From Promethearchaeota archaeon (lineage in GTDB: Archaea; Asgardarchaeota; Lokiarchaeia; Sigyniarchaeales; SOKP01): a stretch of 64,000 nucleotides of DNA. The translations under genes and the position numbers were made by a program. The notes under the pieces are model-generated. The model was not told where the DNA came from. It was given only the letters and a program-made list of their open reading frames with translations, and did no database searches. Below, piece by piece: positions 22,411-57,971 of this stretch; position 1 is the stretch's first letter, and each line of letters begins with the position of its first letter. The stretch spans positions 1 through 64,000 of the forward strand of contig RDOA01000003.1 in NCBI GenBank assembly GCA_011364925.1, in the 5' to 3' direction.

Positions 22411-22559
22411 ATAATCAGAGCAAAATAATTCATATTTTTTTAATTTTGATTTTTTCTATTATTTCTTTTTATTCATTATTCACATTTATAACCAATGATA
22501 TCTATTTAATCGTACTACACTATTTATTTGACAAAAATATAAAAGGAAGTGTAAAAAAG

Positions 22560-26322: not shown

Positions 26323-26898
26323 ATGGTTTATCCCGCTAAATTTAAGCAGTTATATCAATTAATATCTGCTTTAGATAAGTTTCAAACAAGGGAAAAGAAC
26401 ACGATTAGACTTAGTAAATTAGCCACATTTCTCCAAATATCCGAAGAAGATCTAAATGAGATTCTTGAACTCGTGTTTCGATTTCAGCACTTATTTAATT
26501 CTGTATTTAAAGAATACTATCTTTTTAAAAAGTGGAAAAACAACAAAACTTGTCTGGTCTTAAAATTGAAATCGGAAGTAAAAAACCTTAATAATACCGA
26601 ACCCAAAGAGATTGAAATCAATCAAGATCAAGTCAAGGTGTTAAATGACATCGTGTATTATTTTCAGCATATTAGCATTGGAAAAGGGTTCGATATCAAG
26701 CAACCTACAACCGAATTCTCTAAAAAAGTAAAAGAACTTAAAAGAGCTCACCCGCAATTCTTTGAGTATAGAGGAAACGGATTGGTTTATCCTTCTAAAC
26801 TCGCGATTGAAGCGGGAAAACTAATATCGTTTCACAATAAGAGTAAAAAACTGATTACTAAATTGGAAGTAGAAAAATATCTCATTCAACTTGTATGA
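26323..26898 (+). CDS. Uncharacterised protein, possible N-terminal winged helix
   Basis: 191-aa ORF overlapping downstream helicase gene. Confidence 0.5.
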   Translation: MVYPAKFKQLYQLISALDKFQTREKNTIRLSKLATFLQISEEDLNEILELVFRFQHLFNSVFKEYYLFKKWKNNKTCLVLKLKSEVKNLNNTEPKEIEINQDQVKVLNDIVYYFQHISIGKGFDIKQPTTEFSKKVKELKRAHPQFFEYRGNGLVYPSKLAIEAGKLISFHNKSKKLITKLEVEKYLIQLV

Positions 26899-26911
26899 TG
26901 GAGTTAAAGCG

Positions 26912-29065
26912 ATGATTGAATTAGAAAAGAGAGCTTACTTACGGGAGAAGCACTTAGAACATAGAGAGTATCAATTAAAAATTGCAAAAGAGTGCGTATC
27001 AAAAAATTCGCTTGTTGTTCTTCCTACTGGTTTAGGCAAGACGGTTATCGGTGTGTATGTCGCTGCGGAAACTTTAGAAAAATTCCCTTCTAAAAGTAAA
27101 ATACTCGTTTTAGCTCCGACCAGACCATTGATCAACCAACATTACGACTCTTTTAAAAATTTAATGACAATACCCGAAGACCAATTTTTAGTGTTAACCG
27201 GAAAAACCGTTCCTGAAAAGAGAGTAGAGTTGTTCCAAGAAAACCAAATAATATTTTACACACCCCAAACATTACGAAACGATTTAGTGAATAAAAAGTA
27301 CAATTTAGAAGACGTTTGTTTGATAATTTTCGACGAGGCTCATCATGCTACAGGTGATTACGCGTATACTCTGATCGCGGATGAGTATGTTGATCAAAAT
27401 CCAGACGGAACAATCTTAGGCTTGACTGCAAGCCCTGGAGCATCGAAAGAAAAGATTAAAATTTTGTGCAATAACTTACACATTCCGCTCACCAACATCC
27501 ATACCCGCACGAGAAAAGACATCGATGTAAAAACTTATTTGAAACCTATGGATGTCTACAAAATCGGCGTTAATCTTACCGAGCTTATGAGAGACGCTTA
27601 CTTAGCAATTCAAACTTTGCTAGAAGAACGATTGCAGTATCTTTCTCAACTAGGCTTTTTAACAACGAAAGCTAGTGAGCTACATACAAAAGTTATTCGA
27701 AAGGATTTAATCGCGTTAAACACAGAATTAATTCGATTAGTGAAAGGAGATGGGGATAAAACAGGAGTTTACAGCGCGTTATCTGTAAATGCTCAAGCTT
27801 TAATCTTGTATCACATGCTTGAGTTGATCGAACAACAAGGATTAGATGTATTACTGATCTATTTAATGAAATTAAAGCAGGACGCTCGAAAAAAGACTAG
27901 TTCTAAAGCAGTTAAAATTCTAGCTTCAGACCATAGAGTTAATCAAATTTACATTGAATTGAAGAAAAATGAAGATCTCTCTCCTAAACAATTGATCCAC
28001 CCCAAGTTTTACATTCTTGAAAAATTGCTCTTACAAGAGTTCAAAAACAACCCAGATTCAAGGATATTAGTTTTTGTAAAGTTGCGCGATTCGGTTAAAA
28101 ATATTGTAAACAAATTAAAGTTAAGCAATCATGAGACCATTAAGCCAACGAGGTTCGTAGGACAATCAACCAAATCGAAGGATGATAAAGGATTACCCCA
28201 GAAAAAGCAATTAGAGATATTGGAACAGTTCAAACAAGGACATTGCAATATATTGGTAAGTACTAATGTAGGAGAGGAAGGTCTGGATATAGCAGAATGC
28301 GATTTAGTTATTTTTTACGATGTTGTTGCCTCCGAAATTAGGTTTATCCAGAGAAAGGGAAGAACTGCTCGCCATCGTGAAGGGAAAGTTATTATACTGT
28401 ATTGTAAGGCAACGCACGATGAGATCTACATGAACATCGCTTTAAGTAGATTAAAGAAAATGAATATCAACCTTAAGAGCGATCAACAGTTAAAAACAGC
28501 TTATACAAGAAGTCCAAAAGAAATGAAAATTGAAGAAAGCAGTATAGAAGATTCTAAATATGAACTTCCAAAGATGGCTAAATCTCATCAGAAGCAAGGA
28601 AATTTGGAATCGTTTTTAGGTGAATCAGTCAGTCCACTCGATGTGAAGGATAATAGTCAAAAAGCGACCGAAATCAGGATAAGTCAATCTCTTCCGGTAA
28701 AATTCGGAATAAGAAAAAAACTGCAAGAAGATAACATTCCTTTCGACGTTGTAAAGTCAATCAACCATATAACATTATTCGACCGAATCATAATCCAAGT
28801 TGTAGATCCACGCCAATTCGAAGAAGGAAAGTTGATGAGAAAGATTTCTCATTTAAATAAAAAATACCCTCTTTTTATTTCGATATTTGATTTTGTGAAC
28901 TTTTCTAACGATTATCAAGACGAAGAACGGCTTCTCAAACAAAAAGTAAAGAATTGGGGTTCAATTAGCGGTTTAAAAGCGATTCCGATCGACCTTCCCG
29001 AAGAATTATATTTCATCGTTAAAAATGTATATTTACACTCAACTGTAGAACATGAGGTTTCGTAA
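26912..29065 (+). CDS. hef: Hef/FANCM-like SF2 helicase with degenerate XPF-type nuclease domain
   Basis: VLPTGLGKTVIG, IIFDEAHHATGDYAY, LGLTASPG, STNVGEEGLDIAECDLVIFYD, RKGRTARH; C-terminal GIRKKLQEDNIPFDV...GKLMRKISHLNKKYPLFISIF. Start moved to MIELEKRAY. Confidence 0.88.
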   Translation: MIELEKRAYLREKHLEHREYQLKIAKECVSKNSLVVLPTGLGKTVIGVYVAAETLEKFPSKSKILVLAPTRPLINQHYDSFKNLMTIPEDQFLVLTGKTVPEKRVELFQENQIIFYTPQTLRNDLVNKKYNLEDVCLIIFDEAHHATGDYAYTLIADEYVDQNPDGTILGLTASPGASKEKIKILCNNLHIPLTNIHTRTRKDIDVKTYLKPMDVYKIGVNLTELMRDAYLAIQTLLEERLQYLSQLGFLTTKASELHTKVIRKDLIALNTELIRLVKGDGDKTGVYSALSVNAQALILYHMLELIEQQGLDVLLIYLMKLKQDARKKTSSKAVKILASDHRVNQIYIELKKNEDLSPKQLIHPKFYILEKLLLQEFKNNPDSRILVFVKLRDSVKNIVNKLKLSNHETIKPTRFVGQSTKSKDDKGLPQKKQLEILEQFKQGHCNILVSTNVGEEGLDIAECDLVIFYDVVASEIRFIQRKGRTARHREGKVIILYCKATHDEIYMNIALSRLKKMNINLKSDQQLKTAYTRSPKEMKIEESSIEDSKYELPKMAKSHQKQGNLESFLGESVSPLDVKDNSQKATEIRISQSLPVKFGIRKKLQEDNIPFDVVKSINHITLFDRIIIQVVDPRQFEEGKLMRKISHLNKKYPLFISIFDFVNFSNDYQDEERLLKQKVKNWGSISGLKAIPIDLPEELYFIVKNVYLHSTVEHEVS

Positions 29066-29599
29066 ATGGAAGAAAATGCTTTTAAGAAAGATATAACACC
29101 GTATTTGATATTCGCGTGTAAAAGATGCCAGCAATATTCTTACGTTAAAACAACTCAAAAAACAAAAAAGTGTCTTAGGTGTGGGCATTCATACCAAGTA
29201 AAAGAACTGCTTAAAGAAGGCGAAATAGTGAGCGGCATATCAAATGCTGTCGATGCGGTGACTAGGAAACAAAACGAGCTCTCGGTTCCCGAGTTTAGGT
29301 CTCAAGGTGATTTTGTAATTAACACTAGCGATAAAATTCCAAAAAAACAAACCTTGCTTTATCTTCCGAAGGGAGATTTCAAAAAAAGGAATGAAGCTGA
29401 CGTGAAATTTAAAGCTCTCCTATACAATCTTTCAAATCTTTATGGAAAATTTCCAAGATATATGATTGAAATTATGGCAGAAAATAGCGGAATCTCAGGT
29501 GAAGAGATACCGCGCCTAATTGAAATCTTTGAAAAGCAGGGAATTCTCGTCCAATTAAAAGATGATGGTTTCTATTACCAAATTTCTCGCGAACATTAG
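29066..29599 (+). CDS. Zinc-ribbon protein (archaeal, possibly DUF1922-like) with C-terminal helical region
   Basis: FACKRCQQYSYVKTTQKTKKCLRCGHSY; 1-nt spacing after Hef-like gene. Confidence 0.65.
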   Translation: MEENAFKKDITPYLIFACKRCQQYSYVKTTQKTKKCLRCGHSYQVKELLKEGEIVSGISNAVDAVTRKQNELSVPEFRSQGDFVINTSDKIPKKQTLLYLPKGDFKKRNEADVKFKALLYNLSNLYGKFPRYMIEIMAENSGISGEEIPRLIEIFEKQGILVQLKDDGFYYQISREH

Positions 29600-31018: not shown

Positions 31019-31498
31019 ATGTTATCCAATGCAGTTGGTATCATTGAGATCACATTTCATTTTATATATTTAAAAAATCCGGTTAAGATTGTTATGCCAG
31101 AAGTTGATTTCTTACTTGATTTCTTTGTTTTAGCAGATGGCGGCAAAGTTATATTTAGCCATTGTTCTTTGCTGCAATGTGATGAAACGCTTATTGGTGC
31201 GTACTTTCACGCCATAAATTCCATCTACAGAATTTGCTTTAAGCGAGATATGCAAAAAGTATCCTTGAACGAATATCGCTTGCATTTTAAGAAACTTGAA
31301 CCGTTCTTCTTCATCGGGATTTCAACCATTCATGTCAAGACTAAGACGGCAAACGAGAACTTTGAGATTCTGTCAAACCTCTTTTACGATAGATACCATA
31401 ATAAACTTACTAAAAATTGGGAAAGCGATGTGGCACTATTTCAAAACTTTAATTCCGAAGTAGACAAGCGCGTTAAGGAGATTGAACTTTCAAAGTAA
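31019..31498 (+). CDS. Longin/roadblock-like domain protein (putative)
   Basis: Pattern ADGGKVIFSHCS...LIGAYFHAINSI...LHFKKLEPFFFIGIS...F..RYHNKLTKNWESDVALFQNF resembles archaeal longin-like proteins. Confidence 0.4.
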   Translation: MLSNAVGIIEITFHFIYLKNPVKIVMPEVDFLLDFFVLADGGKVIFSHCSLLQCDETLIGAYFHAINSIYRICFKRDMQKVSLNEYRLHFKKLEPFFFIGISTIHVKTKTANENFEILSNLFYDRYHNKLTKNWESDVALFQNFNSEVDKRVKEIELSK

Positions 31499-31525: not shown

Positions 31526-34045
31526 TTAATCTCCTTTGATAATCTTTTTACACAGATTAATTCCCAAACCAGTTTTTCGATCTAGAACATAGGGATTTTG
31601 CTTCTTTACTTGGGTCGCAGTGTGGAATCCCGCATTATACAGGATCCTTGCCCTAACTCTCGCTACATTATCCAACCTTAATATTAAATCAAACAATTCC
31701 TCGTGGATGCCATAATGAATTCTGATTTTAAGCGTTTCTACCATTTCAGCGATCCTTGTCATGTCTTCTTGTATTGTTAAATCTGATTCGCTTAAATGAA
31801 CTGCGATTATGCCGATAAACGTTATTATCCTTTCTATGTTGTCTTTTGTAGTGTAGAGGTCCCCAGTCATAATGTTATGGCGCTCCATTATACTGTCGAG
31901 AGACTCTTCGTCGCACCATTCCAGAATAGGTTGGAGGAGTCTGTAATCGCGCACTTTTTGTTCTGCTTTTAATACTTCATAAGCTTCTTTTACAATATCT
32001 TGGAATGTGTCTAACACAGCGTTTTCAAGTTTATATCTAATGAGCACGCCAGAAACGGGATAAAGGTACAACCTTATTATCAATTTCCCGAACTGTGAAC
32101 ACTTAATAGTCCCGTTATCCCTCAATGTAATTAAGCCTTTTTCAAACAAGTAATTTAACACATATTGGTTCTTAACTGACTTAGGAACGATATCAATCAC
32201 GTACTTTTGAAAATTGTTATCAGGAACATTTATTAAATGCAGTAAAAATGCTGTAATGTGATCGCAGAACTCAAACATAAATTGTTCGTTAGCGTAGTCG
32301 TTAGATATACCGTTTTGAAATCCGCACGAACATCGGATGCCAACATCCGTGTCGAATTCGGTATAAAATAATCCGAAATTGGTCCTTACATATCCTGATA
32401 TATTTGATTTAGATAGCTTTGTAATTTTTATCTGGTGGTGATTGCTTTTTAATTGTTGAACTTTTTGAGGATCGGAATGGAGTTTTAAAATATTAATTGG
32501 AGTGATTTCTTTAATCATAAGCAATTCGTCGATCGGAATCCCTTGTTGACCCATTTTATCTTTTATTCCGTACCAAAAGTAAGTTTTTTGGAAAAACGCA
32601 TTCAATTTCTCCAGATTGATATTTTTTTCTTCGTAAATTCGAAGGAGCACTTGTTCTTTTAATGTGTGTATCCGATTTAGCCCCGAAATTAGATCGTTAT
32701 ACTTAGGTTTATAGGTTCGCGATTGTGAAACGATTTGGAAGTAATGGTCTTCTACCCAATCTTTCTCGTCTATATCGTTTACCAACAAGTAACCAAATCC
32801 TTCATTATCTAAACCGGGTCGACCGGCTCGACCAAGCATTTGAAATATTGCATTAGCAGAAAAAGGTATGAAATAGGAAAATCCATCTCCGTTCTCGTAA
32901 TAACCAGAGAAATTTTTTATGTTGTGCCCAGAGGTAACATATTTCTTAAAGTCTTTGACTATAACTACTCGGCTAGGGAGGTTTACCCCAGCGCTTAAGG
33001 TGGTTGTAGAGCAGATGACTTTAATAATACGTTTACGATACGCATCTTCTATTAATTTTCTCTCTCGTGGAAGTAAGCCCGCATGGTGGAAAGCAACGCC
33101 GAATTTTACGAGTTTTTTAAGTTCAGAGTGTCTTCCTTTAATATTACTTAGTCTATTTTCGACCCTTTTACAAGCTTTAAGTTCAGATTCGGAGATATGA
33201 GATTTAACCAAATTTTTAAGGTTTGCTGCCATCTGATGCGTTGATTTTCTTTTATTTAAAAAGATTAATATTTGACCTCCGTTATCTAAAGTAGCTTTGG
33301 TTATTTTTTTTATTGTGGAATCTTTATTTTGGGTCGTCTCAATTCTGTATTGGAGAGGAACAGGTCGATCATCTGATGTGATGAGCGTTGTTTTATTTCC
33401 AAGAGAAGATAGCCATTCGTTAAAAAATTCAGGATTTGCTATCGTTGCTGAAAGTCCTATAATCTGAGGATTGTTCAAAAACTCGTTTAACCTTACGATT
33501 AACGACTCTAGTCGGGGTCCTCGAGATCCACTGGCGTCGCCAAGGATGTGAATCTCATCAATAATGATTGTTGAAATGTTAAAAATCCATTCTTGATCGC
33601 TAAAATTTCGTAATATTGAATCCATTTTTTCGTACGTAGTTACTAAAACATCCACATTCGCAAGTCTTGAATCGTCTATATCGTAATCTCCAATAGACAA
33701 CTCGATTTTAATCCCAAATCTGTCGTAACTTTTTTTAAAGTGTACATATTTTTCAGTTGCTAACGCTTTGAACGGAACAAGATAAATACTTTTACCGAAT
33801 TTTTGAAAAACATTATTTACTGCGCAAATCTCACCTATAAGAGTTTTACCGGATCCTGAAGGAGCGCAAACCAAAAAAGACTTTTGGAAAAATATGCCTT
33901 TTCTAATAGCTTCTTTCTGAATGTCACGTAACTTAAATATCTTTAACTCGAGAAGAACTCTTAATATCCTCTCGTCAGTAACGTATTGAAAAATCTCATC
34001 TGTTCTCTTTTTTTCTTTGGTCGGTTCCGAGTCGGTAAATTTCAT
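31526..34045 (-). CDS. Ski2/Hel308-like SF2 helicase with SWIM-like zinc motif
   Basis: CAPSGSGKTLIGE, IIIDEIHILGD, LSATIANPE, QMLGRAGRPGLD; CSCGFQN...FCDHITAFLLHL insertion. Confidence 0.85.
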   Translation of the reverse strand: MKFTDSEPTKEKKRTDEIFQYVTDERILRVLLELKIFKLRDIQKEAIRKGIFFQKSFLVCAPSGSGKTLIGEICAVNNVFQKFGKSIYLVPFKALATEKYVHFKKSYDRFGIKIELSIGDYDIDDSRLANVDVLVTTYEKMDSILRNFSDQEWIFNISTIIIDEIHILGDASGSRGPRLESLIVRLNEFLNNPQIIGLSATIANPEFFNEWLSSLGNKTTLITSDDRPVPLQYRIETTQNKDSTIKKITKATLDNGGQILIFLNKRKSTHQMAANLKNLVKSHISESELKACKRVENRLSNIKGRHSELKKLVKFGVAFHHAGLLPRERKLIEDAYRKRIIKVICSTTTLSAGVNLPSRVVIVKDFKKYVTSGHNIKNFSGYYENGDGFSYFIPFSANAIFQMLGRAGRPGLDNEGFGYLLVNDIDEKDWVEDHYFQIVSQSRTYKPKYNDLISGLNRIHTLKEQVLLRIYEEKNINLEKLNAFFQKTYFWYGIKDKMGQQGIPIDELLMIKEITPINILKLHSDPQKVQQLKSNHHQIKITKLSKSNISGYVRTNFGLFYTEFDTDVGIRCSCGFQNGISNDYANEQFMFEFCDHITAFLLHLINVPDNNFQKYVIDIVPKSVKNQYVLNYLFEKGLITLRDNGTIKCSQFGKLIIRLYLYPVSGVLIRYKLENAVLDTFQDIVKEAYEVLKAEQKVRDYRLLQPILEWCDEESLDSIMERHNIMTGDLYTTKDNIERIITFIGIIAVHLSESDLTIQEDMTRIAEMVETLKIRIHYGIHEELFDLILRLDNVARVRARILYNAGFHTATQVKKQNPYVLDRKTGLGINLCKKIIKGD

Positions 34046-34819: not shown

Positions 34820-36538
34820 ATGACAAATGTGTTTGAAAATGCTCAGAGATTAGATGCCGAAGAACTCAAGGAAAAACCACTAAAATCGGATTTAACGGAA
34901 GATTTAACTATAATTAATGGAATTGGTCCCAGTACCGCTTCAAAGTTAAATAAAGCTAATATCAACACGATCAAACAGCTTGCAGATATTACGCCGAGTG
35001 AGCTTTCAGTAATTTCTGGGGTTAGCATCAATGCAGCACAAAAATTCATATCTGAAGCCAAAAACCTTCTTCCTGGATACGATTTTGAAACATTCGATGT
35101 TGCAGAGATATATTTTGAAGAGAAATTCCTACAAGAAGATAGTAATGGAGACTCAGAAATGTTCACATCTTCTCAACAAGAGGATCCCTCAATTTCAGAA
35201 AATCAATCGCAAGAGCATGAGTTAGTGATCGAGCAAATCCAAGATCGATCTCAGGAACAAATGGAAAATACATTCAATGAAGAATCTTTTATGGTTGAAG
35301 AACCTATATTCTTAGAAGAAGACTCTCGTGAAGAAACTCCGCTTGTTCCTGAGATACATGAAATGCAGGAGATTGAAACTATTCCGGAAGCATTCGAATC
35401 ATCAACAGAATTAGATATATTTGAGAATATGGTCGAACAATCGTTGAGAGCATCAGGATACTATATAATTCCAAATTCAATTAACTCATTAAACTCTATT
35501 ATGGATAATATTGACTATCTTGGATGTAAAGTTGTTCGCGTTTCGAGAAGTATCAACCACATTATCATAATTCCAATTAAGCTTTTAGATGTGGAAGAGA
35601 CCGTTTTAGTTAATGAATCGCAACTAAATTCTACTAATGTCGATTCTAGGAATAGGATACGACATTGTTATAAAGATTTATTAAAAACTGGAGATTTAAT
35701 ATTCGATGATATTTTGAACGACAATAAGCTCCGGGAATTCTTTCAAAAATATTTGCAGGTGAACTTAATACTTGAAAAAAGCGTAGAAAACAAAAAATTA
35801 TTTTTCATATCTGGTCAAACTCAGTATAAGATATTAATCGAACCAATTCTGGTCTGTAGAACGCCCCCAAGATGCATGGAAAAATCCATTTTGTTTCCAT
35901 ATCAAAGAAATACCAATGTTCATGTCGTGCAACACTCTTATTTATCCCAACTATTAGATTTTATAGAGCAAAAATACGGTTTTATCGAAACTCGCGGAAA
36001 AAGTTCGAATCCTGTCGAGGATTACCAGAAAAAAGACCATAAATTTCGAACAAACGTACGAGTCATTTCAATTCCGGTAATAGGCTATGCTATTGCGTTA
36101 GCAGTTATTTATTTCGCGGAACTCTATTTCTTGCTTAGGCTATTTAATAGTATTGGGTTTGCTATCGTAGGGATTTATCTCACAATGTTAAGCTACTTAT
36201 ACTCCAAGTCTTATAAAGCGAAAAAACAACTCGCCCTCGAATTTGAAACGCCGTATTACCTGCAAAATTTAGAATTTAGCGAAGCTGATTTATTAGAGTT
36301 TAAAGATATGTTCTCTACTGAGCTTTTAACGCAATTTGGGTACGAATGTTTTGGAAAAGAGAAGAGGTTCAAAGTTTTAGATAAGGTTGAGCAAGAAGAT
36401 TATATGAACAGCCTTCAGAAACATAAAAAAGAAGATATGTCTCATATCGTACACGAATCGAATAAAACTAATAAAAATTTTTTAACAGACGAAAATCCCG
36501 CTTATAACAGTAAGTATCTCTCATTCTTAGAAGATTAG
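34820..36538 (+). CDS. Membrane protein with N-terminal helix-hairpin-helix domain
   Basis: LTIINGIGPSTASKLNKANINTIKQLADITPSELSVISGVSINAAQKFISEAKNLL HhH; acidic linker; TM hairpin near C-terminus. Confidence 0.65.
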   Translation: MTNVFENAQRLDAEELKEKPLKSDLTEDLTIINGIGPSTASKLNKANINTIKQLADITPSELSVISGVSINAAQKFISEAKNLLPGYDFETFDVAEIYFEEKFLQEDSNGDSEMFTSSQQEDPSISENQSQEHELVIEQIQDRSQEQMENTFNEESFMVEEPIFLEEDSREETPLVPEIHEMQEIETIPEAFESSTELDIFENMVEQSLRASGYYIIPNSINSLNSIMDNIDYLGCKVVRVSRSINHIIIIPIKLLDVEETVLVNESQLNSTNVDSRNRIRHCYKDLLKTGDLIFDDILNDNKLREFFQKYLQVNLILEKSVENKKLFFISGQTQYKILIEPILVCRTPPRCMEKSILFPYQRNTNVHVVQHSYLSQLLDFIEQKYGFIETRGKSSNPVEDYQKKDHKFRTNVRVISIPVIGYAIALAVIYFAELYFLLRLFNSIGFAIVGIYLTMLSYLYSKSYKAKKQLALEFETPYYLQNLEFSEADLLEFKDMFSTELLTQFGYECFGKEKRFKVLDKVEQEDYMNSLQKHKKEDMSHIVHESNKTNKNFLTDENPAYNSKYLSFLED

Positions 36539-36663: not shown

Positions 36664-37611
36664 ATGACGCAAAAAATAGTCTTAATAATCGGGTACCCGG
36701 CTTCTGGAAAAACCGTAGCTGCTAAAAAGTACGTAGATCAAGGTTATCACCGCTTAAATCGCGACGAAATAGGGGGCAAATTAGATGATCTTGTTGATCA
36801 CTTAGAAAGATTACATAAAGACAAGGGGATATCTAATTTCGTCATGGACAATACATATTCGACTAAAAAATCTCGTGAGAGCGTTGTTCGATGGGCTCGT
36901 GAAAATAATTTCGAGATAGTGTGTGAGTGGATTGATCTAGATGTGGGAGACGCTCTCTATAACGCCGCACAAAGAATGATTAACACATACGGAAAAATAT
37001 TGACTCCCGAACAAATTAAGAATTGTAACGACATAGGAGTTTACCCTCCAGTGGTGATTTACAAGATACGGAAAGCTTTTGAAGAACCGAATATTGAAGA
37101 AGGGTTCAATAATGTTGTAAGAGTTAAATTTAAGCGAGAATTAGATAAATCTGTATATACAAATAAAGCAATTGTGTTAGATTATGACGGAACATTAAGA
37201 ACGACAAAATCGGGGGAAAAGTATCCTAAAACTCCCGACGACATTAAAATCCTTCCTAATAGAACTGAAATCCTAAAAAGATACGTAAAGGAAGGATATT
37301 TATTGTTAGGCGCTTCGAATCAATCTTTTGTTTCTAAAAAAGTAATGACTGAAGAACAAGCAATCGAATGCTTTGATAAATCAAATAAATTGCTAGATTT
37401 GAATATAGATTATAAGTTTTGCCCACACCCTTCGTATCCTCAGATTTGTTATTGCCGAAAGCCTATGCCGGGAATGGCTGTGGAGTTTATAGAAAAATAC
37501 AAGTTAGATCCATCGCAGTGTATTATGGTTGGAGATTCGAAAACGGATAAAACCTTTGCTAACCGTTGTGGATTTCAATACATTAAACCTGAAGTGTTTT
37601 TCAATAAATAG
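36664..37611 (+). CDS. PNKP-like bifunctional polynucleotide kinase (N) / HAD 3'-phosphatase (C)
   Basis: IIGYPASGKT P-loop; VLDYDGTLR HAD motif I; CPHPSYPQICYCRKPMPGM Zn loop; MVGDSKTDKTFA motif IV. Confidence 0.8.
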   Translation: MTQKIVLIIGYPASGKTVAAKKYVDQGYHRLNRDEIGGKLDDLVDHLERLHKDKGISNFVMDNTYSTKKSRESVVRWARENNFEIVCEWIDLDVGDALYNAAQRMINTYGKILTPEQIKNCNDIGVYPPVVIYKIRKAFEEPNIEEGFNNVVRVKFKRELDKSVYTNKAIVLDYDGTLRTTKSGEKYPKTPDDIKILPNRTEILKRYVKEGYLLLGASNQSFVSKKVMTEEQAIECFDKSNKLLDLNIDYKFCPHPSYPQICYCRKPMPGMAVEFIEKYKLDPSQCIMVGDSKTDKTFANRCGFQYIKPEVFFNK

Positions 37612-37632: not shown

Positions 37633-38130
37633 TTAATTGTGAGGTGGCAAATAATGTTCATTAGATGAAATGATGGTTCCATTTATAAGATAATAGTTGA
37701 TTGCTTTTTCCCAATGTTTCATTTGTTGATTAAAACTCTCCTCAGTAAATTTCTCCACTTCAGCATTTCCTCTTTCAGTTAAACCTGTCTTAGTGTACCT
37801 AATGGTTGTTTTAGTATGCTTATTATCATGATTTACTAATTGAATATTAATACTAACAACCATTATGCTAGGAATAACATATATCATTTCAATCAGACTA
37901 TTTGGATTGTATTTTGTGATAATCCAAGTGATTGATACATCACCATGGAAAGTTTGAAAAATTGCTCCATCTTCTGAAATTCCTGTTGAAGAATAAACGA
38001 TTTCTGCTTTAAAATGTGGAAGCCATTCTGATTCCCTAACAGGACATAATAAAGGAAATACTTTTTCAGGTTGTCCTGCATTCATTTGTATATATTCACG
38101 CGTAATCCTTTTTGATAGAAATTTTGACAT
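37633..38130 (-). CDS. SRPBCC (START-like) family protein
   Basis: KVFPLLCPVRESEWLPHFKAEIVYSSTG...TWIITKYNP... Confidence 0.7.
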   Translation of the reverse strand: MSKFLSKRITREYIQMNAGQPEKVFPLLCPVRESEWLPHFKAEIVYSSTGISEDGAIFQTFHGDVSITWIITKYNPNSLIEMIYVIPSIMVVSINIQLVNHDNKHTKTTIRYTKTGLTERGNAEVEKFTEESFNQQMKHWEKAINYYLINGTIISSNEHYLPPHN

Positions 38131-38312: not shown

Positions 38313-39062
38313 ATGCCGATAAATTTTAAGTCAGTTTGCAAAGGACTATTTGTAATTGGGTTACTACTGGGATTTGTTTCTGTCTTCTTAGATTGGTATT
38401 ATTTACAGGGTATTAGTGATTCTGGAGAAACAGTAGTGTGTTGGATTTACAATGTTTTGTTTGACTGGAGCACCCCCTTTTCCGAGGGTGCGTTCTTCAA
38501 CGAAACGTACCAACCAAAGAACGCAACAATGCCGGTTTTGATTATTATAGTTTTTCTTATTACACTGTTCGTGTCTACCTATTCTGTGTTATTTCACGAT
38601 GTTGAACGAGGAGATAAGTTGTTAAAAGTAAGAAAATTTAATTTCGTAAACTTGTCATTGGTGATGTTATTTGGTTTCTTTATATTAGTATTCCCTTTAT
38701 TTTTTTTGTTGCCAAACGGCCTTTATTACCCGTATTTATTGTTTCATGATTACGATTTAAACATCACATTTTACTATTCAATTGGTCCTGGCTATTTTAT
38801 TCAGTTCATCTCTTTTAGCTGTACGTTTCCCTACGCTTTATTTAATCACTCTGTCATTACTACTTTCGATAAGGAACAATCCAGCGTAGAAAACACAGTT
38901 AATCGATACATTTCAAGCGTTCGGGAGGAGTTGGATTTAGACAAACTTATCGCCAAGGAAGAATTCGAGCTTGAATCGACAAATAGTACCCAAAGTCAAG
39001 TTCCTAAAAGTCAAGAGGAAGAAATTTACGAGGATTTTTTAGCAACTAGGGGGAGAAAATGA
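38313..39062 (+). CDS. Polytopic membrane protein, cluster gene 1
   Basis: 4 hydrophobic segments then acidic cytosolic tail; ATGA overlap with next gene. Confidence 0.65.
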   Translation: MPINFKSVCKGLFVIGLLLGFVSVFLDWYYLQGISDSGETVVCWIYNVLFDWSTPFSEGAFFNETYQPKNATMPVLIIIVFLITLFVSTYSVLFHDVERGDKLLKVRKFNFVNLSLVMLFGFFILVFPLFFLLPNGLYYPYLLFHDYDLNITFYYSIGPGYFIQFISFSCTFPYALFNHSVITTFDKEQSSVENTVNRYISSVREELDLDKLIAKEEFELESTNSTQSQVPKSQEEEIYEDFLATRGRK

Positions 39063-39913
39063 ACGAACAACTGTTGGACTTAAAATTAAAAAGGTTGATT
39101 CAACTTTGTAGAGAAACTCAAAACTATAAAAAGTTAGCGGTTGTTAGTTTTGTTCTTACAAGTAATACAGTTGACGAGATCGGGATTAAGCTTGGGATGA
39201 GACCGAGAGAAAAAAATGCTGGCGAAAAGATTTTTGAGTATATGGAGCTCGTGAACAAAGTTTTTTCACTCAATTTTAATATAAAGGTGTTTAAACCTGA
39301 GATTGTCGAAGGGCTCTCCCAAATCGAACTTCTATTCCTCAAAAAAGAAGGGGAAATAGGATTAGAATACATAAGAGAAGTTTTTGGTATTTACTACGAA
39401 CTTAGGAAGCTAGAAGTTCCTAATTTGCACGAGAACTTAAACTCAGACATATTAGATCGGAATAGGGCAATATCGTTATTTTCGTTCTTATCTGGAGGGC
39501 AGAGCTCGCGAAAGAATAAAGACGGGGCGTTTAATCCGATCCTTCTGCACAAAATTAGAGAAGAAGAAAAAGCTCTCCAAATTCAGCTCGAGCGAGAGTT
39601 CGATAAGGACACTTTCGAGAAGATCTTACACCTCAAAACTATGAGAAAAAACATCGAGCACCGTTCCAAGGGAAAAATTGTTATTTCCGGCTCATTAAAG
39701 GACAATATATCCTATAGGCAATCAAAAGAAAGAATTGGACAGTTTTTAATCTTCGGACTGATTGTATTATTCGCTATGATTGGAATTATAACTGCAATCG
39801 AATCATTCATGTATGGTGTGTTATCAGAAGCTATTGGTTATAACATGCTTATCTGTTTTGGAGCAATAATCGTGCTCTATTTTATTAATAAAAGCTACTA
39901 TAGGAGAGGGTGA
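39059..39913 (+). CDS. Helical protein with C-terminal TM pair, cluster gene 2
   Basis: 284-aa ORF, overlaps genes 1 and 3 by 4 nt. Confidence 0.65.
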   Translation: MNEQLLDLKLKRLIQLCRETQNYKKLAVVSFVLTSNTVDEIGIKLGMRPREKNAGEKIFEYMELVNKVFSLNFNIKVFKPEIVEGLSQIELLFLKKEGEIGLEYIREVFGIYYELRKLEVPNLHENLNSDILDRNRAISLFSFLSGGQSSRKNKDGAFNPILLHKIREEEKALQIQLEREFDKDTFEKILHLKTMRKNIEHRSKGKIVISGSLKDNISYRQSKERIGQFLIFGLIVLFAMIGIITAIESFMYGVLSEAIGYNMLICFGAIIVLYFINKSYYRRG

Positions 39914-42900
39914 TAAATAGTTTGGTAAAATCGTACGCGCACATGTTAAAAAATTCAGATAAAAAGAAAGGTAAAACTTTTTCGGCAGAATTTACTAAAA
40001 TAGACGACCAGGAGAAGAAATTTTTAAAGATTTGGAAAGTTAATCCGTCTTATAAGGACATAGAAAAAAAAGAAACTCTCCTTAAGACGGGTTCTCTAAC
40101 AATCCTTGGATTTATATTTTTTAGCTGTGCGCTATACGCAACGAGGAACCTTGTTTTATCGATTATCATTACTTCTATTATCGTGATTAGTTACGTTGTA
40201 GTATTTCATAAAAGTATTTTTAGCTTGAAACATGTTTTCGAGTTTAAATCCTTCGATCCTTTTCAAAAACTCGTATTCTGGCAACCAATATACGACAAAT
40301 CCATCTTATTTTTTACTAATCATAAAGACTTGACTACAACAGGAATGAGAATATTTCAGATCAAAGTTATCCCTGAAAACGTTCACGCAAACTTGAAACG
40401 ATTCATTAAAGGTTTGCATGCCGTAAAAGTGCCGTATTCTTATCAAATTATTCAAAAGCCTTTGCAAATTGCTAATGACACGCGTTCTGGGGCACAGATT
40501 TCTTCGTTCGAAACCTTAATCTACTTCAGCACTTTTTACTTCTTCAATGGGAGAGTAACCGAATCAAAAATGCTAAAACTCGTCGAATCATTGCGAGAGT
40601 ACACAGTATCTTTACAATCAGCTTTTGCTTCTAACTTTCACCACTTTAAAATCGCGCTTTTAACTGAGTCAGAGTTGATAGAAGTATTTAGAAATTCGGT
40701 TTTGAAACAAAATATAGGAATAGAAAACGAATCTACTAACGCCTCACATAAGCCTTATACGCATGAAAAAGTTAATTCTATTATAAAGCTTATTTATATT
40801 CTTTCGATCGTAATATCTCTTGATTTCTTTCTTTTAATTTTAAGCTTCCCTATAGGAATCCGGATATTGTTAATCGCTTTTATTATAGCAAGCTCAATTT
40901 TAATTTGGTGGCGTGAGTTGCTGTTCCAAGTTAACAAAGGAAAGCTGTTTAAATCGAAAGATATTGAAGTTCTGGCTCCCTTTTCGGGAATTCAGTTCTA
41001 TAAGTCTAGTAAAACGCCAGAAACTCTTTTTTTCAAGGCCAAGGGAAGTTTAATTGGAGGATTAAAGATGCTCAATCTTAATTTTAGTTATCCTCCTTCT
41101 TACTGTTCTCCCGATAAATTTTACGCGGCGTTAATTAGGGATAGTATGCCCTTTACAGTTACTTTTCAGTTAAGACCGTTAACCTTCAGCCAATTTGATA
41201 AAGAGGGATTTAAATACTTAAGAGATAACATAAAGAAAAAGCTGCTTTCTAAAACAGAAAAGTTCATTGACGGTAATAATTGGCTTAGCTTACGTTCGGG
41301 AATTTGGAGCACTATCGGAACGTATTCCACATGCGTAGTGTTTAATTCTCCGGATTTCACCTATGAGTTAGTGGATAAGATGGAACAAAAGCTAATTACC
41401 CAAAAAACGGTTCTATACAACACATTTAAGCAATTCTTCACTAATTTCGAAATTATTCCTCTTAGACATAATAAATTGGAGGCGGGGTTTCTGTTCGAAA
41501 ATTTGAAAAATAAGTTTTTCTTAAGAAATGGAACTCATCTAAATTACATATTATACCAAGGTATAAACTTATGTTATATAGCAGCGTTATCTGACCAATT
41601 TAAAAAGGGAGTAGAAACAAAGTTAGCAACAGAATTCAATACACCGTTACAATTAACTAACTACGTTACGGTAGGAAATACGATTAATACCGAATTCCTT
41701 GAAGGAGAAGTCCCAGCAGGATTTCTATTAAATCAACTACGAAACATACTTATCACAAATGGAACTTACTCGAATCGAGAATTACTTGCTCAAAAAATCG
41801 TAATCGAACTAGTTAAAATGGGACATAACGCGGTAATCTTCGATTTTACGGGGAACTGGTCTAAAGTTATGAATTGGTTTAGAGGAACTCGATATGAAGA
41901 TCAATTCATATACCATAAATTAGGCAAAACATTTGTGATCAATCCTCTTCGTTCTGGGATTCCTTACGATACTGATAATCCAGGATTTTTAGATTACATG
42001 CTCGATGTATACGCTATGTGCTTTAAAAAAGATGAAAAAACTATAGAAACTTTTAGGAACACCATCTTACGCAACCCAGATATCGATGTCTCCACACTCG
42101 TTTTGGATTTAACTACTATGCGTGAATGGGATAAGTCTGCTGTAACTGACACGTTGCTTTCTTTTTTTAAAGAATTTACGCCACACGATTCGAATTTTAT
42201 TCCCCAGCAACAAGTTGATACTCAGGATAATACTTTTGCTTACGAATTTATCACTAATGATAAAACGGTAATAATTGACCTTTCAGATTTAAACGATTAC
42301 GATAAACAATGCTATTTCTCTTTTGTAGCAATTTCTAAATTCATTCACTATTTAAAAACTGGAAAATCCTTTAATCCCAAATTTATAGTGATGCCGCACA
42401 TTGACATCATCTTCGATGGATTTTTCCTTGAAAGTAAAATTCAGTACGGTAAAATTGATAAGTTTTTCAGACCACTACTTGAAAACAATTTTGGGACTAT
42501 ATTCTCTGCGTCTCAGATTAGGTATCTTCATACCAATGTGTTTAACTTCTTAGTTAATATTGTGGCATTTCGGGCAACCGATAATCGAGACATCGCAGTA
42601 TTTAACGGTCAGATGAACTTAGAGAGCCTTCATGGAGTAGGGTACTACAGCACTAGTAGAAACGAAGGATATCAAGCGAGGTACATTGGGAACATGAAAC
42701 AAGACGAAGCCGTAGTTAAAAGAGATGATATTTATCAATCTTTTCCTGTTAAGTTTGATTTAGACGACATTCGAAATATGGAGCCGCTATCCTGGCAAGA
42801 AATCGTAAGTTATATGAAAAATCAAGGCTACGATCTTGAGAATACTGAACGAAAAGTCATGAAGAGGGCTCAGACAACGCTATTTGAATCCGATTTCGCG

Positions 42901-43686
42901 GGTTACAGCAACTTAGTTGACGGTATTATTAAATTTTTAAACAACCTCCAAGCAGTAGATAAAGTGGGAAATATGTACAGAAAGAAAATAAGGGAAGAGC
43001 TCCAAAAGGTATTACACCCTTACATTTTAAAAATAACTCGAGAGAAAAAAAGAGAAAAAGATATTGTTGATAGAGTGTTCGCTATTTTAATTAGACAGCA
43101 ATACTTAATAGAGAGCCATCCCAAAAGAGCGAGCGGTTCAGAATCGATGCAAACATCGTTCGCGGTCGGTCCACGATATCAAAAAGTTTTAAAAGATTAC
43201 TACGAATCCCGGGACAGCTCAATCATCAGTTACGAACCAATAGATCTCGAATCCGATATAACACCTCAAACAGAGCGTACGAATACTACTAATTTAAAAA
43301 ACGCGTTAACAGAACACTTTGCACCTATTCTATATTACGAATTTTTCAATATTCATAAATTCATCGCTCAGCAAAAATACGAAAAAGCTTTGAAAATAGC
43401 AAAAACGCTTCTGAGAAGATATCTTTACGAAGTTTACAATAGCTATTATAGCGTTGATTACACAATAACGAGCGCAGACATAAATAAATTTATAACTCTT
43501 ATGACCACTACAGAGAATTTTCCATTTACAGAAAAGGAGTTAAGCACATTCTTGTCTATGTGTGATGAAATTACTCCGGACGAAAAGAACCTAAAGCAAC
43601 AGAGTAAAAACTTATTCAACTCTTATTCAAAACTTTTCAACAAGTTCAAATCCTACTTAGAAGGAGAGGTGGAAGTAGTATCGTAG
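39910..43686 (+). CDS. Membrane HerA/VirB4-like protein with degenerate P-loop, cluster gene 3
   Basis: TM pairs in N-terminal half; EVPAGFLLNQLRNILITNGTYSNRELLAQKIVIELVKMGHNAVIFDFTGNW mirrors HerA/VirB4 Walker A-to-strand layout without GxxxxGKS/T; GTG start overlapping gene 2. Confidence 0.7.
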   Translation: MINSLVKSYAHMLKNSDKKKGKTFSAEFTKIDDQEKKFLKIWKVNPSYKDIEKKETLLKTGSLTILGFIFFSCALYATRNLVLSIIITSIIVISYVVVFHKSIFSLKHVFEFKSFDPFQKLVFWQPIYDKSILFFTNHKDLTTTGMRIFQIKVIPENVHANLKRFIKGLHAVKVPYSYQIIQKPLQIANDTRSGAQISSFETLIYFSTFYFFNGRVTESKMLKLVESLREYTVSLQSAFASNFHHFKIALLTESELIEVFRNSVLKQNIGIENESTNASHKPYTHEKVNSIIKLIYILSIVISLDFFLLILSFPIGIRILLIAFIIASSILIWWRELLFQVNKGKLFKSKDIEVLAPFSGIQFYKSSKTPETLFFKAKGSLIGGLKMLNLNFSYPPSYCSPDKFYAALIRDSMPFTVTFQLRPLTFSQFDKEGFKYLRDNIKKKLLSKTEKFIDGNNWLSLRSGIWSTIGTYSTCVVFNSPDFTYELVDKMEQKLITQKTVLYNTFKQFFTNFEIIPLRHNKLEAGFLFENLKNKFFLRNGTHLNYILYQGINLCYIAALSDQFKKGVETKLATEFNTPLQLTNYVTVGNTINTEFLEGEVPAGFLLNQLRNILITNGTYSNRELLAQKIVIELVKMGHNAVIFDFTGNWSKVMNWFRGTRYEDQFIYHKLGKTFVINPLRSGIPYDTDNPGFLDYMLDVYAMCFKKDEKTIETFRNTILRNPDIDVSTLVLDLTTMREWDKSAVTDTLLSFFKEFTPHDSNFIPQQQVDTQDNTFAYEFITNDKTVIIDLSDLNDYDKQCYFSFVAISKFIHYLKTGKSFNPKFIVMPHIDIIFDGFFLESKIQYGKIDKFFRPLLENNFGTIFSASQIRYLHTNVFNFLVNIVAFRATDNRDIAVFNGQMNLESLHGVGYYSTSRNEGYQARYIGNMKQDEAVVKRDDIYQSFPVKFDLDDIRNMEPLSWQEIVSYMKNQGYDLENTERKVMKRAQTTLFESDFAGYSNLVDGIIKFLNNLQAVDKVGNMYRKKIREELQKVLHPYILKITREKKREKDIVDRVFAILIRQQYLIESHPKRASGSESMQTSFAVGPRYQKVLKDYYESRDSSIISYEPIDLESDITPQTERTNTTNLKNALTEHFAPILYYEFFNIHKFIAQQKYEKALKIAKTLLRRYLYEVYNSYYSVDYTITSADINKFITLMTTTENFPFTEKELSTFLSMCDEITPDEKNLKQQSKNLFNSYSKLFNKFKSYLEGEVEVVS

Positions 43687-44072
43687 TCCAAGACCAGAAA
43701 AGAAGAACCTACGAGCAAATCATAGAAAAAATTGTGTTCGACGAAGATGAATTAAACAAACTTAAAGATAAAATTCGGGATTTAGTCGAGGGTAAGATTC
43801 AAGCTAAGCAGCTTAAACAAAATTTGTTGCAATCAAGAGATCGTATAGTCAAAGATTTATCGAAATTTTTAATTTTTTGCATCGAACGTGTGGAAAGTAA
43901 CAATCAAAATCGAAACCTTGAAAAAAACTCGGCTTCTAATAAACCAGATTTGGAATTTGAACGATTACGTAAAGATATAGCAGAAAAAAATGAGTTTTTA
44001 GAAATCGTTGCTAAAAAAGTTGATAATCTTGTGTCTAAAGTTAAGGTCGCTAATAAATCTGAAATTTCATGA
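43680..44072 (+). CDS. Coiled-coil protein, cluster gene 4
   Basis: Track start GTG 43734; frame open upstream to 43680 (IVVQDQKRRTYEQIIEKIVFDEDELNKLKDKIRD) overlapping gene 3 stop. Confidence 0.55.
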   Translation: MVVQDQKRRTYEQIIEKIVFDEDELNKLKDKIRDLVEGKIQAKQLKQNLLQSRDRIVKDLSKFLIFCIERVESNNQNRNLEKNSASNKPDLEFERLRKDIAEKNEFLEIVAKKVDNLVSKVKVANKSEIS

Positions 44073-46367: not shown

Positions 46368-46411
46368 TTGAATTACCAACTTTTAAATAACGAATTTTGT
46401 TATTAAAGTTT

Positions 46412-46996
46412 ATGAATAAATTTCCAAGAGATAAATACGAAATTATAGATCTAATTTTTACATTCCTTTTTGCTATAAGTTTTACCTTAACAGCTCTCCT
46501 CCTTTTAGATAATTTGATAGTTTCTATAATTTATATCATTTTAGTTGGTCTTTTTTCGCTTGTAACCATATTTTTGTGGTTTGTACAGAATCCATTTAAT
46601 ATGTATTTAGTCAGAACATTTGCCTTTACCAACTTTTTATTCACATTTATAGCGATTATTGCTTACGTTTTACCACCAATTGAAGATGTAGTAAATCCAT
46701 ATATCTCAATTATTATGATATTGCTGCTTATCCCTTCAATTTTCTATCTCGCAATTACAACTAGGTTTGTAGCAACTTCAACCCTTAAGTATAAAAGAAC
46801 AGGGGCAGCGCTAGCTTTTATGGGAAGAATTAAAAATGTCGAGCAAGCTTTATATGGAGATACAGTAGAGAATAAAATAAGACGAGAAGAAGCAATGGCT
46901 AAAATCAAGAAAGCATACAACCAAAAAATCGTAATAGTGTTATGCATCGTTTTTGCTTTATGTAGTATTTCTGCACTAATTTTTGGATTTTATTAG
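46412..46996 (+). CDS. Membrane protein, tandem paralog A
   Basis: MNKFPRDKYEIIDLIFTFLF... aligned with 47075 gene; start 46412 set by that alignment. Confidence 0.65.
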   Translation: MNKFPRDKYEIIDLIFTFLFAISFTLTALLLLDNLIVSIIYIILVGLFSLVTIFLWFVQNPFNMYLVRTFAFTNFLFTFIAIIAYVLPPIEDVVNPYISIIMILLLIPSIFYLAITTRFVATSTLKYKRTGAALAFMGRIKNVEQALYGDTVENKIRREEAMAKIKKAYNQKIVIVLCIVFALCSISALIFGFY

Positions 46997-47074
46997 GTTT
47001 GTAAATTGAGTAAATGAAATTTATATCTAATCTATATACGAATATTTATATGCCGAATTGTATCAGTATAGTGT

Positions 47075-47659
47075 ATGAACGATCTTCCTAGAAAGAAATC
47101 CGAAATTCTGGATTTAACATTTACAATTCTTTTCACAATAAGTATGGTGTTAAACGTTTTATTTCTTCGTTTGAATTTAATAATATCTACAACATCTGTC
47201 ATTATATTCTTTCTCTTATCCGCTCGGGTTATACTTTATTGGATAGCAAGGAATCCTTTTAAAACATTATTAATTAGATCGTTTGCTTATACTAATTTCT
47301 TGTTTAGTATTGTAGCACTCATAACTTTAACGAGGCCTTCTTTTTCCGATACTCCAGACTATTTTCCATTTGGTATTGTATTTCTCCTCTTTTTACCATC
47401 TGGGATTTATACCTTACTTGCGATTTTCTCTCATAGAAGCTCAAGCCCCTTGGATAAAATTGCAGGGGCTGAGTTAGCTTTTTATGGGAAAATTAAAAAT
47501 ATTGAAATCGCTTTGTTTGGAGATAGCTTAGAGGTTGAAAAGAAGAGAAAAGAAGCAATTACTCAATTGAAAACAGTCTACAGGTATAAATTGATTGTAA
47601 TATTAAGTGTTCTATTTCCGATAATCAGTTTTATAGCTCTTATCATTGGATTTTTGTAA
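47075..47659 (+). CDS. Membrane protein, tandem paralog B
   Basis: MNDLPRKKSEILDLTFTILF...GKIKNIEIALFGDSLEVEKKRKEAI; paralog of 46412 gene, both 194 aa. Confidence 0.65.
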   Translation: MNDLPRKKSEILDLTFTILFTISMVLNVLFLRLNLIISTTSVIIFFLLSARVILYWIARNPFKTLLIRSFAYTNFLFSIVALITLTRPSFSDTPDYFPFGIVFLLFLPSGIYTLLAIFSHRSSSPLDKIAGAELAFYGKIKNIEIALFGDSLEVEKKRKEAITQLKTVYRYKLIVILSVLFPIISFIALIIGFL

Positions 47660-56013: not shown

Positions 56014-56517
56014 ATGATCGAAAAAGAACCATTTTCTGAGAAGCAAGCTGACGAAAAACTCAGAAGCGAAATTAAGGAAGAAATAAAACGGGAAATGCGA
56101 GAAGAGCAAAGAGTAAAATCAGGGAAATCGAGAAAAACAGCGGGTGTAATTATAAGCGGCGTTGGTGCGATATTATATCTTATTTTTGGATTCTTTCTTT
56201 TAATATTAGGTTCAGGAATGGGAATTATGCGCAACATCGCTATTATGATGTTAATTGCAGGAGGAATTTCAATCACAGGAGTAATAGTAGCAATGTATAA
56301 AGTAAAAATAGGCGGTATAATCACTTTAATCTCAATACCGATCGCTATCGTTATTGGAATAATCTTACAGTTCACGGAACTTCATTACTATTATTATTAT
56401 TACTGGTTATATCTCCTTGAATATATGTTGGCGTATACACCGTATGCATATTTACACGTCATACCTGGTGGAATTATATGTTTAACTGCTAATGACATGG
56501 AAGAAATTAGCCGGTAA
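56014..56517 (+). CDS. Tandem paralog membrane protein, copy 1
   Basis: EKLRSEIKEEIKREMREEQRVKSGKSRKTAGVIISGVGAILYLIFGFF...HVIPGGIICLTANDME. Confidence 0.75.
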   Translation: MIEKEPFSEKQADEKLRSEIKEEIKREMREEQRVKSGKSRKTAGVIISGVGAILYLIFGFFLLILGSGMGIMRNIAIMMLIAGGISITGVIVAMYKVKIGGIITLISIPIAIVIGIILQFTELHYYYYYYWLYLLEYMLAYTPYAYLHVIPGGIICLTANDMEEISR

Positions 56518-56742
56518 AACGAACTACATATAATTTTTTTATTTTAATTTATTTTTTCCGATTTAGTAAAGTCGTGAGAAATTCTTAGCAGTATTATTTC
56601 CTACTAAGATTGTGAAAGTCAAAAAAATTCTCTTTATTTATAGCTTCTACCTCTATTTCATTAGCTTTATTATATCCATGATACCTATTATGTAAAGATT
56701 TAAATAGAGAACTAACAAAAATGTATAATAGAGGTCGTAATC

Positions 56743-57234
56743 ATGATCGAAAAAAAACCATTTTATGAAGAAGAAGCTGACGAAAAACTCAGAAGCGAAA
56801 TTAAAGAAGAAATAAAAAGGGAATTGAAAGAAGAAAAAAGAGTAAAATCAAGGAAATCGAGAAAAACAGCGGGAATAATTATAAGTGGTGTTGGTGCGAT
56901 ATTATATCTTGTTTTTGGATTCTTTTTTTTAATATTGGGCTCGTCATATGGATATATGCGCGATGCTGCTGTTTCTATGTTGATTGCGGGAGGAATTTCA
57001 ATTGCAGGTATAATAGTAGCATTATATAAAGTAAAAATAGGAGGCATAATCACTTTAATCTCAATTCCGATCGCTATCGTTATTGGAGTAATCTTAATGC
57101 TCATGGAACCTTATTCTTATTATTATTACTGGTTAAATTTCATCCAATACGTAATATTTCCTCTCCCTATTCCGCACTCGTTACACGTCATCCCTGGTGG
57201 AATTATATGTTTAACTGCTAAGGACATAGAATAA
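56743..57234 (+). CDS. Tandem paralog membrane protein, copy 2
   Basis: Near-identical N-terminus and core to copy 1; same upstream region. Confidence 0.75.
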   Translation: MIEKKPFYEEEADEKLRSEIKEEIKRELKEEKRVKSRKSRKTAGIIISGVGAILYLVFGFFFLILGSSYGYMRDAAVSMLIAGGISIAGIIVALYKVKIGGIITLISIPIAIVIGVILMLMEPYSYYYYWLNFIQYVIFPLPIPHSLHVIPGGIICLTAKDIE

Positions 57235-57476
57235 AATAGACATCAAAACGATCTAAATATCCTTTTTTTATTTTAATTTATTTTTTCCGATTTAATAAAG
57301 TCGTGAGAAATTCTTAGCAGTATTATATCCTAATAAGATCGTATAAGGCGAAAAATTTCTATTTATTTATAGTTTCTATCTCTATTTCGTTATCTTTATT
57401 TATTATAAGAGAGATTTTCGATGATGTAAACATTTAAATAACCTAACCACAAAGATGTATATCAGAGGTCGTAATC

Positions 57477-57971
57477 ATGAACGAAGGAGAGCCAATTTCT
57501 GAAAATCAAGTTAAAGAAAAACCCAGAAACGAAATCAAAGAAGAAATAAAACGGGAAATGCGAGATGGACAAAGAGAAAAAAAAGGGGAGTCAAGAAAAA
57601 CAGCGGGAATAATTATAAGTGGTGTTGGTGCGGTATTATATCTTGGTTTTGGATTTCTTTTTTTAACTTTGGATTTTGGATATAGTTATTTGCGCAGCTT
57701 CCCTCTTACATTAGTGGTTATTGGAGGAATTTCAATGACAGGAGTAATAGTAGCGCTGTCTAAAGTAAAAATAGGTGGTATAATTACTTTAATTTCGTTG
57801 CCGATTGCATTCGTTATTGGAATCGCCATGGAACCTTATTACTATACCTATTACTCGACGTATCCTCTTCTATATATGTTGATATATGGTACACCATTTG
57901 GGTATTTACATGTCATACCCGGTGGAATTATATGTTTGACTGCTAGCGATGTAGAATTAAGTACCCACTAA
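57477..57971 (+). CDS. Tandem paralog membrane protein, copy 3
   Basis: ENQVKEKPRNEIKEEIKREM...KTAGIIISGVGAVLYLGFGF...HVIPGGIICLTASDVE. Confidence 0.75.
   Translation: MNEGEPISENQVKEKPRNEIKEEIKREMRDGQREKKGESRKTAGIIISGVGAVLYLGFGFLFLTLDFGYSYLRSFPLTLVVIGGISMTGVIVALSKVKIGGIITLISLPIAFVIGIAMEPYYYTYYSTYPLLYMLIYGTPFGYLHVIPGGIICLTASDVELSTH

Follow-up and report, generated by a model that had tools for sequence, protein, structure and literature searches.

The window analyzed here comprises the first 64,000 nucleotides of contig RDOA01000003.1 of a Promethearchaeota archaeon (GCA_011364925.1; Lokiarchaeia) and contains a cluster of membrane protein genes centered on gene 3 (G3). Judged from its sequence and predicted fold, gene 3 encodes a conserved pseudo-ATPase related to VirB4 and HerA. 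It belongs to a block of genes (HHH, g1, g2, G3 and g4) that recurs in Lokiarchaeal genomes, and close to it lies a gene for a Hel308-like helicase (HEL). The conserved G3-HEL neighborhood suggests an unrecognized membrane machine that handles DNA. The reading we favor, to which we assign a probability of about 45%, is a membrane-anchored DNA-handling platform that feeds recombination, most likely during DNA uptake or exchange of the kind carried out by the archaeal Ced system, with the motor provided by another protein.

Gene 3 and the loss of its nucleotide site

Single-sequence searches of the g1, g2, G3 and g4 proteins against Pfam, NCBIfam and PDB returned nothing useful, and it was the family profiles and the predicted fold that proved informative. 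An AlphaFold model of G3 residues 30-1120, built from an alignment of 43 sequences, has a mean predicted local distance difference test score (pLDDT) of 80.8. A Foldseek search with this model placed VirB4/TrwK of R388 first (E 7e-21, about 950-1050 columns) and HerA second (E 3e-12), and the G3 family profile compared with PDB sequences also found HerA (3.5e-6), over the part from Walker B to the sensor, i.e., the second half of the ATPase core. By its modeled fold, gene 3 belongs to the VirB4/HerA branch of the FtsK-HerA superfamily. The first-pass annotation had described N-terminal pairs of transmembrane (TM) segments and a C-terminal half resembling HerA/VirB4/TraG ATPases; the structure prediction contains a RecA/FtsK-like fold, of the VirB4/HerA type, and the TM pairs are seen as two hairpins both by hydropathy and among the model helices. 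The ATPase fold is followed by a winged-helix-like domain, and shorter Asgard homologs of gene 3 give weak PadR/HTH_34 matches, below the curated cut-offs.

The Walker A signature GK[ST] was sought in 48 Lokiarchaeal gene-3 sequences and found in none, and it is absent from all the more distant Asgard relatives that were read; HerA/VirB4-like controls and the c19 family described below carry it. In Lokiarchaeal sequences the corresponding position reads NGTxxxRE, the Arg being present in 42 of 44 full-length G3 proteins. Walker B is altered in these proteins as well, with P829 in 44/44, N or H at position 830 in 39/44, and P-[NHY] in nearly all. Since none of the members examined retains the Walker A lysine, gene 3 is, to the extent that its sequences can tell, an old and conserved pseudo-ATPase in lineages ranging from Lokiarchaea to distant Asgard families, which bears out the pseudo-ATPase call of the first-pass annotation. 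Some of the distant relatives retain a Walker B-like DD or DE without Walker A, and we therefore infer that Walker A was probably lost before Walker B. The weak profile matches from non-Asgard archaea were not taken as members of the family; the two that were read (L142 and L143) have a canonical P-loop.

The N-terminal half of G3 is a tandem duplication, as profiles of residues 1-285 and 286-540 align with each other (E 3.5e-18). In several other Asgard families, the unit composed of TM segments and a region similar to the VirB4 N-terminal domain (NTD) occurs only once, as a separate gene for 250-325 amino acids (aa) located directly upstream of a gene for a pseudo-ATPase of 480-535 aa. The simpler reading, though not a proven one, is that Lokiarchaeal gene 3 arose by duplication and fusion of this two-gene arrangement; alternatively, the other families split the gene. 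Split gene-3 relatives are followed by nitrogenase-like genes of the NifH/NifD/NifE type in families f9 and f10 (L053 6299-8403, L063 2907-6629) and are preceded by a gene for a membrane protein with an M28 peptidase domain in families f20 and f18 (L056 2890-5493, L127 9912-12962).

The five-gene block and its helicase partner

HEL is the steadiest genomic partner of G3. The two genes lie on one contig at most 15 kb apart in 56 of the 73 genomes that hold both, according to positions collated by hand; random placement in a genome of 3.3 Mb would give about 0.7 such genomes. About nine Asgard families contribute close pairs; the sole genome with two copies of each gene contains two separate G3-HEL pairs. 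Short contigs make up many of the exceptions. G042 (f15) contains a contig of Loki type, possibly through an error in binning. The HEL protein belongs to the DEAD family (3.6e-29), has invariant C572, C574, C594 and H596, and scores 330.7 bits against the Hel308 equivalog model NF040935, short of the cut-off of 1200. With a full-length HEL profile, true HEL proteins are matched over their full length at about 500 bits or more and are separated from the Hel308-type copies of the same genomes, which match only the first two thirds. As to gene 3 itself, protein searches found it in 58 of 228 Asgard genomes, and its profile reaches further, into more distant Asgard families. An origin on viruses or plasmids is not supported, because the scans made of viral contigs and plasmids yielded no relatives.

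A gene for a RadA-like recombinase with a helix-hairpin-helix (HhH) motif lies near the gene-3 relative in families f3, f19, f20 and f28, and the f28 operons additionally encode a zinc/winged-helix protein and an XPD-like helicase. The f28 partner proteins of 206, 530 and 90 aa were compared with HHH, g2 and g4, and no homology was detected. Away from the cluster, the window itself encodes a RadA-like protein with HhH motifs (6527-7672) and, at 26891-29599, a Hef/MFH-like helicase followed by a zinc-ribbon/winged-helix protein with weak resemblance to a protein of the f28 operons (hhalign probability 61).

To establish the composition of the block, open reading frames were called and clustered in stretches of up to 20 kb surrounding 46 additional gene-3 loci. 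At least one of HHH, g1 and g2 is found upstream of gene 3 in 32 Lokiarchaeal loci, where the order is HHH-g1-g2-G3-g4, and 22 of these 32 loci have all five genes together, often with the same -4 overlaps. This arrangement is spread over most genera of the Lokiarchaeal family, and the clustering exceeds chance. The block thus consists of five genes and not of the four recognized in the first-pass annotation, which missed HHH. What that annotation did claim about the locus holds: genes 1-3 overlap by four bases at ATGA and GTGA junctions, g1 and g2, described as membrane proteins with cytosolic tails or helical regions, both contain TM segments, and the neighborhoods of homologs, once checked, keep g1, g2 and g4 beside gene 3. 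In relatives HHH is directly 5' of g1; in the window two unrelated genes stand between them, and nearly all relatives lack these at that position. A divergent g1 is also found ahead of the gene-3 relative at L061, in another family of the order. At L039 (6040-9726), the N-terminal half of HHH is fused to gene 3 and g1 and g2 are missing, which is either a real fusion or an assembly artefact.

The HHH protein begins with a RadA/RAD51-type HhH domain (HHH_5, 1.9e-9 in the family search; residues 2-64 match RadA TIGR02236, 2.3e-8), and its N-lobe is matched to RadA/RAD51 by Foldseek with a probability of 1.0 but an E value of about 0.015. There follow a strongly acidic disordered linker (32 D/E vs 3 K/R among 104 residues), a folded domain for which a PDB search gave no significant match, two TM helices at about residues 415-459 and a C-terminal helical domain. 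Three or more TM segments are present in g1, two or three at the C-terminus of g2 and none in g4; neither g1 nor g2 matched any family in Pfam, NCBIfam or PADLOC. The g4 genes of relatives begin with an ATG that directly adjoins or overlaps the gene-3 stop, and next comes a conserved stretch, '..(F/Y)EQ(V/I)(V/I)EKI(V/I)F(D/N)'. This stretch is likewise present in the window, upstream of the listed GTG and in the same frame, so that g4 probably starts further upstream, at or just before the gene-3 stop. There is no ATG, GTG or TTG at the position used by relatives, and a non-standard codon, a base change or an error may be involved.

In some Lokiarchaea a gene-3 paralog is accompanied by TPR proteins, with a further gene, c19, located just downstream or one gene away. 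The c19 product is a HerA-type ATPase of roughly 650 aa that is predicted to be active on the basis of its canonical motifs (GLTGxGK[ST] or similar, and DE). It matches Pfam DUF87 (4.7e-7), and its best NCBIfam match is CedD, a weak one (1.9e-5) far below the cut-off. The paralogs with c19 occupy at least two branches of a quick tree of gene 3.

Known systems and possible roles

The first-pass annotation could not match the cluster to a named system, and neither can we: no named system fits, and we do not claim membership in Ced or in type IV secretion systems (T4SS). A literature search for a VirB4, HerA or Ced system in Asgard archaea found none, and the gene-3 family is not described there. 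Gene 3 resembles VirB4 in its fold and domain order, but a duplicated N-terminus, association with a helicase and catalysis lost throughout the phylum are undescribed for any named system we found. VirB4/TrwK, the T4SS ATPase of R388 and the best structural match, also has VirB4-like N-terminal domains followed by a RecA/HerA-type domain and works at a membrane complex, whereas gene 3 has two tandem TM-anchored N-terminal units and no Walker motifs. HerA, known from HerA-NurA and HerA-effector complexes, resembles gene 3 in fold and, over the second half of the ATPase core, in sequence profile, whereas the membrane anchors, the VirB4-like N-terminus and the loss of both Walker A and Walker B set gene 3 apart. 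HEL is, similarly to Hel308, a superfamily 2 helicase, from which it differs by its invariant CxC..CxH motif of the SWIM type and by a score far below the Hel308 cut-off.

The closest functional precedent is Ced, where CedB and CedD, consisting of TM segments, a VirB4-NTD-like region and a HerA/VirB4-like ATPase, are needed for DNA import (PMC11868833); Ted loci, too, carry recombination genes (PMC9905601). Gene 3 shares this layout and a nucleic-acid context and can be accompanied by a putatively active HerA-type protein (c19), but CedB and CedD are described as ATPases while the nucleotide site of gene 3 is degenerate. Neither CedA nor CedA1 was recognized among the cluster genes, for which no dedicated model search was made, and the best CedD score in the window's genome, 83.6 bits against a family cut-off of 600, does not come from gene 3; the CedB model was not searched.

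The conserved block of membrane genes supports the membrane assembly proposed in the first-pass annotation. Rather than the cell-surface machine or protein pore that it suggested, HEL, the RadA-like genes and the HhH domain on a membrane protein point to DNA handling. We favor a Ced-like process because VirB4 is the top structural match, the nucleotide site is degenerate, G3 is linked to HEL and has RadA-like neighbors, c19 can be present, and Ced provides a precedent; both the cargo and the direction of transport are what we infer. Gene 3 would form a membrane-bound ring or docking scaffold similar to those of VirB4/HerA proteins and would hold DNA without pumping it. Binding of DNA or RadA may fall to the winged-helix-like domain and to the HhH domain, which is carried on a long acidic linker. 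ATP-driven movement would be supplied by the adjacent HEL and, in the paralogous cluster, by the neighboring HerA-type ATPase, after which the DNA would be passed to RadA-type recombination enzymes. Most likely, cells would take up DNA or exchange it with one another in the manner of Ced, with recombination coupled to this process at the membrane. A more specific version, in which the cluster is an Asgard-specific DNA-exchange apparatus, old in the phylum, with a motorless VirB4-type ring, force from a SWIM/Hel308-type helicase or a HerA-type ATPase, and coupling to RadA recombination at the membrane, is offered only tentatively and may well be wrong.

Several observations weigh against the uptake or exchange of DNA. 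The VirB6-like channel (TrbL PF04610) is not matched in the window's genome, VirB2 pilin being outside the search, and neither g1 nor g2 matches a channel family. The VirB4 N-terminal domain PF03135 has no sequence match in this genome either, the resemblance being structural only, and the G3 model has low whole-chain TM-scores (0.28 by query) owing to differences in domain orientation. There is no clear c19 in the window's genome, where only weak P-loop matches were found. Finally, repair or segregation would account equally well for the linkage to recombination genes.

The strongest competitor is a membrane tether that serves replication restart or homologous-recombination repair; the DNA would never cross the membrane, and the pseudo-ATPase would act as a scaffold by which damaged DNA, RadA and the SWIM/Hel308-like helicase are kept at the envelope. 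Such a tether accounts for much of the same evidence as DNA uptake does, namely the genomic linkage to recombination genes and HEL and the HhH and winged-helix-like modules, and it agrees with the genome searches for TrbL and PF03135, which identified no channel partner. On its own, however, it leaves unexplained the VirB4-type N-terminal units and the presence of a seemingly active HerA-type ATPase beside the paralog, and we regard it as unlikely, if a serious contender. A role in chromosome segregation or division like that of FtsK/SpoIIIE, with a ring anchored in the membrane that catches DNA at the septum, would also agree with an FtsK-HerA superfamily fold combined with membrane anchors, and FtsK likewise has a winged-helix domain after the ATPase fold. 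This role is improbable: protein searches find gene 3 in only 13 of 45 good genomes, several lineages still lack a strong match after the profile has added others, no division genes were seen at the loci, and the motor residues are absent.

Slightly more improbable still is a protein pore or secretion complex with the pseudo-ATPase as its gate or substrate-receptor ring. EccC of type VII secretion is, like gene 3, a membrane-associated FtsK-HerA superfamily protein with inactive ATPase domains, but other ATPase domains of the same EccC chain are active, whereas the gene 3 chain has a single such domain, a degenerate one. Degenerate ATPase domains in this secretion ATPase are described, for the EccC5 DUF, in PMC11154593, and g1 and g2 are membrane proteins, as such a complex would have; the recurrent partners, however, are DNA enzymes and not secreted substrates, and the HhH domain sits on the cluster's own membrane protein. 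Very unlikely is an anti-mobile-element defence module of the HerA-effector kind. Known systems do pair HerA-type ATPases with effectors (8j4u and 8ziq are among the matches), and HEL matches PADLOC helicase models such as HamB. These HEL matches reflect generic DEAD-box similarity, however, and HHH, g1, g2, G3 and g4 match no PADLOC model; the block and its partner are conserved across the phylum, unlike patchy defence islands, and the scans made of viral contigs and plasmids gave no relative.

The locus in its surroundings and wider meaning

Table 1. Positions of the block, its helicase neighbor and gene-3 elements in the window
Feature	Position	Strand	Description
HEL	31526-34045	-	Hel308-like DEAD-box helicase, SWIM-type CxC..CxH; divergent neighbor of the block
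Gene 0 (HHH)	34820-36538	+	HhH/TM protein, first gene of the block
Insertion outside conserved block	36664-37611	+	Polynucleotide kinase/3'-phosphatase-like; PNK3P 3.1e-12, AAA_33 1.1e-8
Insertion outside conserved block	37633-38130	-	165-aa protein, no family
g1	38313-39062	+	249 aa; membrane protein, 3-4 TM, charged cytosolic tail
g2	39059-39913	+	284 aa; helical cytosolic domain, then C-terminal TM segments
Gene 3 (G3)	39910-43686	+	1258 aa, GTG start
G3 domain order			[TM hairpin + VirB4-NTD-like unit] x2, predicted VirB4/HerA-fold pseudo-ATPase, winged-helix-like, helical C-terminus
G3 TM hairpin 1	40066-40203	+	Residues about 53-98; AlphaFold helices and hydropathy (peak 81-99)
G3 TM hairpin 2, start of duplicated unit	40768-40905	+	Residues about 287-332; hydropathy peak 315-333
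G3 Walker A-equivalent TNGTYSNRE	41755-41781	+	Residues 616-624; no GK[ST]; Arg623 in Walker Lys region
G3 Walker B-equivalent (K)FIVMPHID	42376-42405	+	Residues 823-832; D/E pair replaced by Pro-His/Asn
G3 winged-helix-like domain	42979-43212	+	Residues about 1024-1101; helix/strand order in model
g4	43734-44072 as listed (GTG)	+	Short helical protein

The product of the first inserted gene (36664-37611) has its polynucleotide kinase part at the N-terminus and its 3'-phosphatase part at the C-terminus. Next to HEL, a 159-aa protein (31019-31498) is longin-like by eye, and close relatives have homologs at the same place. Downstream of the cluster, two tandem paralogous membrane protein genes (46397-47659) are flanked by two GNAT-like genes, a set that also comes after the cluster in several relatives. 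Further away, the window contains two tandem and very similar fused ABC transporter permeases with both halves in each chain (22407-24323 and 24512-26275) and three small membrane proteins encoded in tandem, paralogs that share an N-terminal coiled segment (56014-57971).

The literature searched holds no DNA-exchange or membrane-coupled recombination machine of Asgard archaea, and a conserved pseudo-VirB4 tied to a dedicated helicase would be a concrete and testable candidate for one in the phylum nearest to eukaryotes. If our reading is true, gene 3 would clearly illustrate how an entire FtsK-HerA family can lose catalysis and yet be retained across a phylum, and the duplication and fusion that gave rise to its N-terminal part would be traceable step by step.

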